From an uncultured Puniceicoccaceae bacterium (lineage in GTDB: Bacteria > Verrucomicrobiota > Verrucomicrobiia > Opitutales > Coraliomargaritaceae): 33,242 nucleotides of DNA. The notes below the pieces were generated by a model. That model saw nothing but the letters and a program-made list of their open reading frames with translations. It did not search any database and was not told the DNA's origin. The stretch covers positions 1 through 33,242 of the forward strand of contig CAJQOS010000002.1 of assembly GCA_905479975.1 (NCBI GenBank), given 5' to 3'. Position numbers and translations under genes: made by a program. Shown here one piece after another: positions 4,154 through 31,599 of the stretch (positions are counted from its first letter, which is position 1; every line of letters begins with the position of its first letter).

Positions 4154-4195
4154 AGCCCTTCGCCATTACCAATTAGCTATTAACCATTAATTTAT
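4154..4195 (+). repeat. Heptad-periodic array before sufB
   Basis: Six 7-base units of the type NNCYATT (for example CGCCATT, AGCTATT, AACCATT) run directly into the sufB ATG. A similar CCAATTAG-type stretch precedes the nnrS-like gene near 28878. Confidence 0.7.
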
Positions 4196-5621: not shown

Positions 5622-5663
5622 CCGACGAACGTCCAACATTGAACGCTCAACTTTGAACATCAA
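5622..5663 (+). repeat. Heptad-periodic array before sufD
   Basis: Six 7-base units fill the whole spacer up to the sufD ATG, with consensus ACNTYSA or, in another phase, GAACNTY (for example ACATTGA, ACGCTCA, ACTTTGA). The same GAACRTY word family recurs before tgt and ribH, 9 kb away. Confidence 0.75.
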
Positions 5664-6971: not shown

Positions 6972-7041
6972 TTAGCCGGTTTTCAGTTAGCCAGTTTTCG
7001 GTTATCTCCTAATTCGTAATTCGTAATTCCTAATTCTCAAA
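6972..7041 (+). repeat. Heptad-periodic array before sufT
   Basis: About ten 7-base units lie between sufD and sufT. The distal half alternates GTTAGCC-like and GTTTTCA-like units (a 15-base near-repeat). The proximal half is a clear run of TCGTAAT/TCCTAAT units, two of them identical. It ends at the sufT ATG. Confidence 0.8.
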
Positions 7042-8786: not shown

Positions 8787-8906
8787 CATGTCGTGATACA
8801 AAGGAGCCCCCCCCCCTCAGAGCCATATCCTTCTACATAAGTCGGAGGGGCGTGAAGTTCGCACGAATCAGCTCCTTCCCTTACCAAGGGAAGGTGGTCG
8901 CGAAGC

Positions 8907-9093: not shown

Positions 9094-9251
9094 TCTTTAG
9101 ATCGTCAAATCCGCGTAACCCTGATCAATTAAAGGCATTCTTAATGCGATTCTCCAATTCAGAGGATCGGCCGCTTCTTCCCCTGTAGCAGGAAAACGCT
9201 CAGGCACAGACCCAGCAAAGCTGAGCTCAATGCCATTGCATATTAATTGTA

Positions 9252-9451
9252 GCACCAAAGGTGCGGCCGATGTCAGCCTAGGGCAAGGCCCTAGGGTTTG
9301 AATGAACCATCCAGCCAAAGCCCTGAAAGGGCGACCTAATCGAGCAAGTGCTTGGCCCATCGAATAAAACGCCCTTTCAGGACTCGCTGTGTTTTGGGGA
9401 TTGAATTCCCGGGGCCTTGCCCCGGGCTGACATAGATTGCCCCGTTGGGGC
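9252..9451. repeat. Composite REPIN-like palindromic element
   Basis: A large imperfect inverted repeat in which each arm carries small hairpins. Left arm: GCACC/GGTGC (9252-9264), CCTAGGGC/GCCCTAGG (9277-9295), GCCC/GGGC (9320-9332). Right arm: a CCTGAAAGGGC complement near 9370-9381, CCCGGGGC/GCCCCGGG (9408-9426), GCCCC/GGGGC (9439-9451). TGTCAGCC and its complement GGCTGACA sit at matching places in the two arms. This mirrors REP doublets mobilised by RAYT transposases. No such transposase is in the window. Confidence 0.8.
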
Positions 9452-9481
9452 GAGAGTCATGCGAATACGCACCACAGACTT

Positions 9482-9655
9482 ATGTATAAGGATATGCTTC
9501 GCAGGGGAGGAGTTTTAAGAAGAGCATCAATAACGCCAACTTGACGAGACCAAGACATGTATAAGGATATGCTTCGCAGGGGAGGAACTTTTAGCAGTAC
9601 ATTAATGACGTTAATTTGAAGATACAAACTTATGTAGAAGGATATGCTCAGAGCA
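9482..9655 (+). repeat. 75-base tandem repeat, two and a partial units
   Basis: The units start at 9482, 9557 and 9632, exactly 75 bases apart. The first 30 bases of units 1 and 2 are identical (ATGTATAAGGATATGC through GGGGAGGA), and the rest is diverged but alignable. The third, partial unit contains the stop codon of the HAD gene (complement of 9648-9650), so the array has reached the 3' end of that gene. Confidence 0.85.
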
Positions 9656-13255: not shown

Positions 13256-14371
13256 CTACTTCCCGCCCGCGTTGTAGCGCTCGATCCACGCTGCGCTCCA
13301 CTCCGCGTAATCGTCCGCCTCGATGTGAGCGCGTGCTTGCTCCATCAGATCCAAGAAGAAATGCGTGTTGTGAATCGAGAGCAACGTGTGCGCCAGCAGC
13401 TCCTTCGCCATGACGAGGTGGCGCAGATACGCGCGGCTGAAGTGCTTACAGGTGTAGTTATCCGCCTCCATGATCGGCTTCGGATCGTGCTTAAAACGCT
13501 CATTCTTAAGGTTCAACACACCGTCCGGCGTAAACACCGAGGCATGGCGCGCGAGCCGCGTCGGCATCACACAATCGAACATGTCCATGCCGAGGCCGAC
13601 CATCTTCAGGAGCTGCGGCGGTGTGCCAACTCCCATCACATAGCGTGGTTTCTCCTTGGGCATGACCGGTGCAGTCGCTGCCACCTGACGGATCATTTCT
13701 TCTTCAGGCTCACCGACGCTCACGCCGCCGATGGCATAGCCCGGAAAATCTAGTTTCGCCAATTCGCGCCCGCAATGCTGACGCAGGTCATCGTAAATCG
13801 AGCCCTGAATGATTCCAAACACATGATGCCCGGACTCAAGAAATCCGTCTTCCGTCGCATGCTCTAAAAACTCACCGGCCCAACGAATGGTGCGAGCCAC
13901 TGCCGCTTCGCAGTCCTCCCGATCACACGGATACGGCGGGCACTCATCGAGCACCATCGCAATGTCCGTATCGAGATCCCGCTGAATTTCATAGCAGTTC
14001 TTCGGCCCGAGGAACAACTTACGCCCGTCCAAATGCGAGCGAAACTCGATGCCCTTCTCAGTGATCTTGCGCAGCTTGGAGAGACTAAACACCTGAAAGC
14101 CGCCGCTATCGGTCAAGATCGGCCCCTTCCAATTCATGAACTTGTGCAGACCGCCCATCTCCTTCACCAGATCCGAACCAGGTCGGATATTTAGATGATA
14201 GGTATTGCCCAAGATGATCTGCGAGCCGACCTCTTCGATCTGCGCAGGCGTCATCCCTTTGACAGTGGCTTGAGTGCCAACTGGCATAAAAATCGGAGTC
14301 TGAATATCGCCATGACGTGTTTTAAGGACACCACGACGGGCCGAGCCGGATTCTTTGAGCAATGTGAACAT
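13256..14371 (-). CDS. tgt: Queuine/preQ1 tRNA-ribosyltransferase, zinc site incomplete
   Basis: TGT exchanges guanine-34 of certain tRNAs for a queuosine precursor. It has 371 residues, normal for bacteria. Substrate motif LTDSGGFQVFSL has D88, and GMDMFDCVMPTR has the nucleophile D266. GGVSVGE and YVMGVGTP are also conserved. In the C-terminal zinc motif, the usual E-C-D-C-Y-T-C is E-A-D-N-Y-T-C: A303 and N305 replace two cysteines. C308 and H334 (SIHN) remain, so only two of four zinc ligands are present. It may lack zinc or bind it differently. The rest is intact, so it looks functional. No queuosine biosynthesis genes are in the window. The heptad array at 14379-14420 lies upstream. Confidence 0.95.
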   Translation of the reverse strand: MFTLLKESGSARRGVLKTRHGDIQTPIFMPVGTQATVKGMTPAQIEEVGSQIILGNTYHLNIRPGSDLVKEMGGLHKFMNWKGPILTDSGGFQVFSLSKLRKITEKGIEFRSHLDGRKLFLGPKNCYEIQRDLDTDIAMVLDECPPYPCDREDCEAAVARTIRWAGEFLEHATEDGFLESGHHVFGIIQGSIYDDLRQHCGRELAKLDFPGYAIGGVSVGEPEEEMIRQVAATAPVMPKEKPRYVMGVGTPPQLLKMVGLGMDMFDCVMPTRLARHASVFTPDGVLNLKNERFKHDPKPIMEADNYTCKHFSRAYLRHLVMAKELLAHTLLSIHNTHFFLDLMEQARAHIEADDYAEWSAAWIERYNAGGK

Positions 14372-14378
14372 GTCGTCG

Positions 14379-14420
14379 AACGTTGAACATCGAACGTCGA
14401 ACGTCCAACATCGAATTATT
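14379..14420 (-). repeat. Heptad-periodic array before tgt
   Basis: Six 7-base units lie upstream of the tgt start. On the plus strand they read AACRTYG, for example AACGTTG, AACATCG and AACGTCG. This is the same word family as before sufD and ribH. Confidence 0.78.
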
Positions 14421-14455
14421 GATTTTTGCAGGTAAATCCCCCTCTGAGGTATTCG

Positions 14456-14490
14456 AAGTTCGGCGTTGAATGTTCAACGTTCGGCGTTCT
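14456..14490 (+). repeat. Heptad-periodic array before ribH
   Basis: Five 7-base units of the type RYGTTCR (for example GCGTTGA, ATGTTCA, ACGTTCG) end 14 bases before the ribH ATG. Read on the minus strand they match the GAACRTY words before tgt and sufD. The tgt and ribH arrays face each other across a T-rich spacer that should contain the divergent promoters. Confidence 0.72.
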
Positions 14491-14504
14491 TAGTGATCCC
14501 CCTT

Positions 14505-14981
14505 ATGAGTCTCGACATTCCAAGCATCCAAGAAATTGACGGCAGCGGCCTGCGCTTTGCCGTGATTGCCTCGCGCTATAATGAAGCGCTGGTCGACTCG
14601 CTCGTGCACCATGCCACAGCCACATTGACCGCTGCAGGTGCCGACGCACCGGTTCTCGAGCGCGTCCCCGGTGCCGCCGAACTCCCCTTTGCCGCCTCGA
14701 CGCTGGCACACCACTCTGAATTCGACGCGATCATCGTGATCGGCGTCGTCATCGCAGGTGATACCAATCACCACGAAATCATCGGCGATAGCACCGCCAC
14801 CGCTTTACTAAACATCAGCATCGATCAAAAGGTGCCCATCATGAACGGCATCCTCGTCGTCAATAACCTCGCACAAGCCGAGGCACGCGCCGGAGACACC
14901 ATCAACCGTGGCAAAGAATTTGCTCAAGCAGCCCTCGAAATGGCTCAATTTACAAAAAAATGGAAGACAACGAACCAGTAA
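14505..14981 (+). CDS. ribH: 6,7-dimethyl-8-ribityllumazine synthase
   Basis: This is the penultimate enzyme of riboflavin synthesis. From the ATG at 14505 it has 158 residues. A start 39 bases upstream would add sequence translated from the heptad repeat, so I rejected it. Typical motifs: FAVIASRYNEALVDSL, VPGAAELPFAA, and GVVIAGDTNHHEIIGDSTATAL with the catalytic histidine, then PIMNGILVVNNLAQAEARAG. It overlaps nusB by 22 bases, a pairing (ribH-nusB) common in bacteria. No other rib gene is present, and no FMN riboswitch is seen in the leader. Confidence 0.95.
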   Translation: MSLDIPSIQEIDGSGLRFAVIASRYNEALVDSLVHHATATLTAAGADAPVLERVPGAAELPFAASTLAHHSEFDAIIVIGVVIAGDTNHHEIIGDSTATALLNISIDQKVPIMNGILVVNNLAQAEARAGDTINRGKEFAQAALEMAQFTKKWKTTNQ

Positions 14982-16350: not shown

Positions 16351-16433
16351 GTTGTTTGTTGATGGTTGCTGGTTGCTCGCTAACTGAAGCAACGAACAAC
16401 TGACAACAATCAGCATCCAACAAACAACGAACA
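16351..16433 (+). repeat. Heptad array with strand-switched halves before aroB
   Basis: About eleven 7-base units fill the spacer. The distal half uses NGTTGNT units (TGTTGAT, GGTTGCT twice). The proximal half uses ACNANCA units (ACGAACA twice, ACAAACA, ACAATCA). The halves are roughly complementary, so the leader can fold with TTGTTTGTTG pairing to CAACAAACAA. It runs directly to the aroB ATG. Confidence 0.8.
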
Positions 16434-28755: not shown

Positions 28756-28853
28756 CCTAATCGTAATCCTACTCCCGACTAGAGTCATAATCCTACTCTT
28801 ACTCGTAATCCTAATCCCACACAGCCGAGTAAGATTAGGAGTAAGACTTTAAA
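28756..28853. repeat. Heptad-periodic array between thrC and the NnrS-like gene
   Basis: About fourteen 7-base units, mostly TAATCCY/TACTCYN words (GTAATCC appears twice; also TCCTACT and CTTACTC). They switch after 28826 to complementary words (CGAGTAA, GATTAGG, AGTAAGA), so the array can form a hairpin. A weaker heptad stretch with CCAATTAG continues to the ATG at 28896. A run of six C (28752-28757) marks its left edge. Confidence 0.75.
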
Positions 28854-31468: not shown

Positions 31469-31599
31469 TCAAACGTAGAAAATAGAATCCAACATTGATC
31501 TCCTTCTCACACAACGTCTAAGCATGAGCCCCCCCCCACCCAGATCACGAACACCATCAGGCAGGACACTTAAATAATTCTATTTTCTACGTTTGCCCC
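31465..31599. mobile_element. MITE-like element with inverted repeat ends
   Basis: The arms begin GGGG, contain CAAACGTAGAAAATAGAAT (left, 31465-31488), and occur inverted at 31577-31599 with one mismatch. The 135-base element has no gene and includes a run of nine C (31529-31537). Such elements are moved by transposases encoded elsewhere; none is in the window. Confidence 0.75.

Follow-up and report, generated by a model that had tools for sequence, protein, structure and literature searches.

In heterocystous cyanobacteria, the STRR sequences form tandem heptamer arrays that are dispersed through intergenic regions and built from several related words. To our knowledge, no start-codon-oriented polarity has been described for them. 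The arrays reported here, compared with STRR by description, are likewise dispersed heptamer arrays, but they differ in host (Opitutia rather than cyanobacteria) and in words.

TAACTGA direct repeats occupy intergenic regions of marine Beggiatoaceae, some Cyanobacteria, and Bacteroidetes (MacGregor, 2015; PMC4679880). In Flexibacter litoralis, they lie in forward orientation before start codons, with one set reversed after a stop codon, and the main text of that paper does not mention Verrucomicrobia (PMC4679880). Our arrays resemble TAACTGA in being heptamer direct repeats, mostly intergenic and a few nucleotides upstream of starts, in a setting of few Shine-Dalgarno (SD) sites and with a patchy taxonomy (PMC4679880). 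The tandem 7-nt repeats precede starts in one orientation, but about half of the arrays lie nearer a stop and are reversed; SD sites are rare behind the arrays, and the repeat unit is not TAACTGA. Whereas that system has a single word, with related heptamers rarely repeated (PMC4679880), several degenerate word families coexist per genome here, orthologous genes differ in their words, and one array is conserved across a family. This multi-word make-up, the switching of words at fixed genes, and the frozen array before ribH are new elements.

REP or GTAG-tagged palindromic repeats are also dispersed, intergenic, and often inverted, but they are single short palindromes, in contrast to the 7-nt tandem units of the present arrays (PMC3733652). 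REP-like sequences share the same spacers as the arrays. GTAG-tagged palindromes (GGTAGCGCAGGTGCGTCCCGCACC..., GTAGGGGCTTTGCTTGCGAAG...) were seen upstream of tgt at L007 and L008 and in the aroB leader of the sister species (L140), and relatives' arrays occupy the same spacers.

The arrays bear on an open question, namely how genes without SD sites are selected for translation in many uncultured bacteria.

Facing arrays in the tgt-ribH spacer

The window, that is, the whole 33,242-nt stretch of DNA analysed, comes from the genome of a marine verrucomicrobial bacterium, designated G000; the genome of a sister species is designated G010. Gene identities in the window (tgt, ribH, sufB, sufD, sufT, ftsY, and aroB) were assigned by NCBIfam. 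The divergent genes tgt and ribH are separated by a 133-nt spacer that contains two outward-facing tandem arrays with a 7-nt period:

13256..14371, minus strand, tgt (tRNA-guanine transglycosylase)
14374..14415, minus strand, heptad array leading tgt, ending 2 nt before the tgt start codon
14416..14455, no strand assigned, unconserved spacer between the facing arrays
14456..14493, plus strand, heptad array leading ribH, AAGTTCGGCGTTGAATGTTCAACGTTCGGCGTTCTTAG, ending 11 nt before the ribH ATG
14505..14981, plus strand, ribH (6,7-dimethyl-8-ribityllumazine synthase, lumazine synthase), ATG at 14505

Read in the sense of tgt, the units of its array are TTCGATG, TTGGACG, TTCGACG, TTCGATG, TTCAACG, and TTCGACG; TRF describes this side as six copies of CGTCGAA with an 80% match and also finds a 21-nt period (90%). 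The ribH units are GTTCGGC, GTTGAAT, GTTCAAC, GTTCGGC, and GTTCTTA. In each gene's sense, the word of both leaders is TTCRAYG, of which GAACRTY is the other strand. The first-pass annotation, made from the sequence, had described two divergent genes each carrying a heptad leader across the shared spacer, and this description is confirmed, the arrays standing far above chance. Against 500 dinucleotide shuffles each, the lag-7 self-match of the tgt array is 19.6 (shuffle maximum 8.0-8.6) and that of the ribH array 9.2 (shuffle maximum 7.0); among lags 4-14, lag 14 alone is raised besides lag 7 in both arrays.

The same annotation had assigned the sufD leader to the GAACRTY words of tgt and ribH. 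The word class is common to the three leaders, but the orientation is not, since tgt and ribH carry TTCRAYG in sense and sufD carries GAACRTY in sense, and the sufD array is weaker (lag-7 p = 0.06; lag-14 score 11.4). The other arrays of the window are as follows:

4155..4190, plus strand, array leading sufB, CCATTACCAATTAGCTATTAACCATTAA, kept in five near relatives (L001, L002, L004-L006)
5628..5662, plus strand, array leading sufD, flipped relative to tgt and ribH, occupying most of the sufB-sufD spacer
7007..7036, plus strand, array leading sufT, AATTCNT family
16351..16377, plus strand, left arm of GTTGYTG heptads, immediately 3' of the ftsY stop codon
16390..16433, plus strand, right arm of CAACRAA heptads, ending at the aroB ATG and pairing with the left arm

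Scanning the tgt-ribH spacer for sigma-70 promoters and terminators gave no match. A search of positions 14340-14540 against the curated Rfam families at gathering score was likewise negative, with microRNA-like hairpins scoring below threshold. The predicted folds reach -16.9 kcal/mol for the tgt array (z -1.3) and -12.5 kcal/mol for the ribH array (z -0.8). Because both arrays self-fold moderately, they are not unstructured, and an unstructured leader was rejected as a general principle.

Heptamer words across the genome

Intergenic lag-7 segments number 13 in a 378-kb sample of G000 and 11 in 400 kb of G010. Other lags mostly yield 0-3, the exceptions being 14 and 21, which reflect the lag-7 arrays themselves, and a small number of further lags (seven each at lags 6 and 14 in G000, six at lag 13 in G010). 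No lag-7 peak appears in 56 control loci, mostly clostridial. Clustering of leader heptamers across the genome samples, proposed as a check in the first-pass annotation, resolves the arrays of this Opitutia family (relatives of Coraliomargarita) into a few dispersed word families: TTCRAYG, AATTCNT, CTTCTAA, CAACRAA, GAGACYT, and CATTAGC-like.

Its central claim, that heptamer identity is partly common to distant loci, is confirmed. Among 34 loci from unselected stretches of G010, 28 identical-word pairs were found against a letter-shuffled mean of 2.0 and maximum of 11. In G000, where only ten loci were available, there is one identical-word pair against 0.07 expected from shuffles, and five against 0.9 within one mismatch. 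A second G000 set (L171-L190) was picked by pattern matches; the word-sharing statistics therefore use the unbiased samples only. The strict TTCRAYG pattern (TTCRAYGTTCRAYGTTC, 2.5 units long) matches 16 times in the window's own genome, at about 13 places including the tgt-ribH locus, and 74 times in G010, whereas the backwards pattern matches nowhere, so that sharing lies far above chance. The strict AATTCNT pattern (2.7 units) has 29 matches in the own genome, 71 in G010, and 77 in another family of the same order; reversed-pattern controls gave 0-6 matches in the genomes counted. Because words are shared beyond chance, the idea that each spacer drifted independently is rejected.

Strict arrays are missing from many genomes of the same genus, which implies that most arrays are dispensable. 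AATTCST is scattered across the phylum (15 of 289 genomes) and, taken together with the congeners lacking arrays, this makes word load a property of the strain. In genus g61 of the same class, AATTCST occurs in G189, G095, and G154 (40, 8, and 1 matches, respectively) and in none of the other sampled members.

Leaders of the same genes in relatives

The best matches to tgt come from Opitutia MAGs (94-97%) and Coraliomargarita sp. SDUM461004 (89%), a genus placed in Puniceicoccales/Coraliomargaritaceae. Upstream of ribH, 25 distinct family sequences retain a 38-nt block (AAGTTCGRCGTTGAATGTTCRACGTTCGRCGTTCTTAG); the middle of the block is variable, the spacer outside it is unconserved, and 23 of 54 columns are invariant in an alignment of 19 family sequences. 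One relative (L006/L090) has lost the block. Covariation in the ribH leader is slight (seven pairs at -4.7 kcal/mol, of which one shows a double change). In G010, tgt lies 34 kb from ribH, which keeps the block, and tgt has a CTTCTAA leader of its own; the G010 array adjoining ribH was therefore rejected as a tgt leader.

The tgt leaders alternate between two word families. TTCRAYG leads tgt in the window species, in the majority of its genus, and in L010/L011; CTTCTAA does so in the sister species, in L006, and in most other genera. A protein tree with the leaders, read by eye, gives at least four switches of word family, including one between the window species and its sister; some of these may be exchanges of entire leaders through recombination among strains. 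A lag of 7 scores best in 11 of the 13 orthologs examined, across both families. The sufT leader is built of TAATTCG in the window species, CAGCCAT/CATTCAT in L001-L004, and CACYACT in L009, each with period 7; in the sufT leaders of L005 and L006, period 7 is not significant. At tgt and sufT, the word seems less important than the period and the low G content. On whether heptamer identity follows the gene or the strain, which the first-pass annotation had posed as a test, the answer depends on the locus: it follows the gene at ribH, near-identical family-wide, and the strain at tgt, sufT, and aroB. The pattern that would have spoken against the annotation, with words conserved at each locus and none shared between loci, is present by half, as ribH is conserved throughout the family but sharing exceeds chance.

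Polarity and translation initiation

Many arrays lie 0-20 nt upstream of start codons and have a G-poor sense strand, the distances being approximate because gene calls and starts come from a simple codon-usage caller. In the sense strand, C exceeds G by 31 arrays to 9 within 20 nt of a start, and G exceeds C by 27 to 8 near a stop (Fisher p = 2.6e-6); the G000 counts derive partly from loci picked by pattern matches, and those of G010, which are unaffected, are 12:3 at starts and 3:10 at stops by themselves. Family-assigned arrays point outward from the spacer in 59 cases and inward in 12, and about half of the inward exceptions fill a short spacer, reading toward the start. A universal polarity rule was rejected, as AATTCGT arrays in other Verrucomicrobiota have no constant polarity.

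SD-like motifs precede 0 of 26 and 1 of 16 genes with a start-adjacent array, compared with about 8% of other spacer-led genes; over all genes, the frequency is 11-12% against 7-9% in shuffles. Leader G content is low (0.16). Arrays also follow stop codons or lie between convergent genes, positions in which they cannot act in translation initiation.

Origin and function of the arrays

Judged from sequence comparison, and with a probability of about one in two, the arrays would constitute a lineage-specific class of intergenic heptanucleotide repeats that are tolerated or used as SD-free leaders. Beyond the observed period, word sharing, polarity, conservation at ribH, and switching at tgt and sufT, this reading supposes that a small set of words spread through the genome and that arrays lengthen and shorten by slippage in 7-nt units. 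Words at the spacer edges, pointing outward, would give the mRNA a G-poor heptad leader before the start codon. In a lineage mostly without SD sites, such a leader may plausibly serve, or at least be tolerated, as a ribosome landing region, and at ribH purifying selection would by now have fixed one array as a regulatory or initiation element.

Word families differ in how they spread. In the sister genome, an element whose arms are CTTCTAA heptads and whose ends are constant (CTAACTACT/CTTTTAAGG and CTGAATCTAGGATC) is dispersed in over a dozen copies in 800 kb (L133, L134, L140, L148, L152, L153, L155, L156, L166, and L168); the strict CTTCTAA pattern has no match in the window genome. MITE-like constant flanks thus accompany CTTCTAA in G010, and none are shared between loci around the TTCRAYG and AATTC arrays of G000. 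A shared order of variant units, which would prove copying, is not significant among TTCRAYG arrays (p = 0.14). Lacking common flanks and unit order, the TTCRAYG and AATTC arrays could have arisen by short-copy seeding or by convergent selection. The first-pass annotation had preferred dispersal, common selection, or gene conversion to independent drift; beyond the exclusion of drift, dispersal is evident for CTTCTAA in G010 only, selection is indicated by position, polarity, and ribH conservation, and gene conversion gains no direct support from flanks or unit order. Dispersal combined with selection for leader function fits best.

Neutral heptanucleotide microsatellites offer a possible but doubtful alternative, in which polymerase slippage is biased towards 7-nt units, repeats that break the frame are excluded from coding regions, and spacers retain the survivors. 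Patchy abundance by strain, with many congeners having none, and the arrays in convergent spacers agree with this account, and work cited in PMC4679880 ranks 7-nt units as the most frequent class of long repeats in most genomes of bacteria. Neutrality nevertheless does not predict that few words are common to many loci, that the arrays have a polarity, or that the ribH words are conserved throughout the family.

Alternatively, a protein that binds RNA or DNA (S1, a Csp-like protein, or another) might recognise the heptads as sites of a post-transcriptional regulon, an idea put forward for TAACTGA (PMC4679880). The position of the heptads directly before start codons, the degenerate words in common, and the conserved ribH block are compatible with such sites, but orthologs carry several unrelated words at the same place, which makes recognition of a single word improbable and this explanation unlikely. 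A more speculative variant, to which we assign very little probability, takes the 7-base register rather than the word as the signal: a ribosome-associated factor or SD-independent machinery would read 7-nt steps, unrelated words would be interchangeable, and the genome would keep a pool of swappable words.

For the SD-free leaders that we favour, a period kept while words turn over, set against the frozen words of ribH, provides a natural contrast as to whether spacing, composition, or sequence drives initiation. The arrays also make it possible to trace how short repeats spread when no mobile element is visible, and tests look feasible because named, cultured members of the family (Coraliomargarita) exist.

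Arms across spacers and further repeats

Inverted arms, a class that includes non-heptad (REP-like) palindromes, occur in 5-7% of co-directional spacers against 0.1-0.4% of cross-paired spacers and are enriched in convergent spacers too. The ftsY-aroB arms fold as an RNA hairpin with z -3.8; the aroB right-arm array is missing from the sister species, whose aroB leader carries a REP-like sequence instead. These counts, this hairpin, and the CTTCTAA arrays at the ends of the G010 element suggest a further reading, in which the arrays would in general be arms of inverted repeats, either hairpins or small mobile elements, that function as terminators or attenuators or are remnants of insertions. 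This reading is highly improbable given that divergent spacers such as tgt-ribH are not enriched, that left and right arms in one spacer often belong to different word families (L120, L172, and L155), and that the TTCRAYG and AATTC arrays share no flanking sequence.

The window holds several other features. Degenerate TAATCCT/TACTC repeats lie between the threonine synthase gene and its neighbour (28760-28815), and a tandem repeat with a 75-bp unit in 2.3 copies, containing TATGTATAAGGATATGCTTCGCAGGGGAGG, lies at 9474-9648. An Acido-Lenti-1 sRNA (RF01687) at 9251-9295 on the minus strand exceeds the Rfam gathering score. Intergenic poly-C runs of 9-11 nt, possible slippage sites, are found at 381-391, 8807-8816, and 31529-31537; C or G runs of at least 9 nt number six in the 378-kb G000 sample and two in 800 kb of G010.
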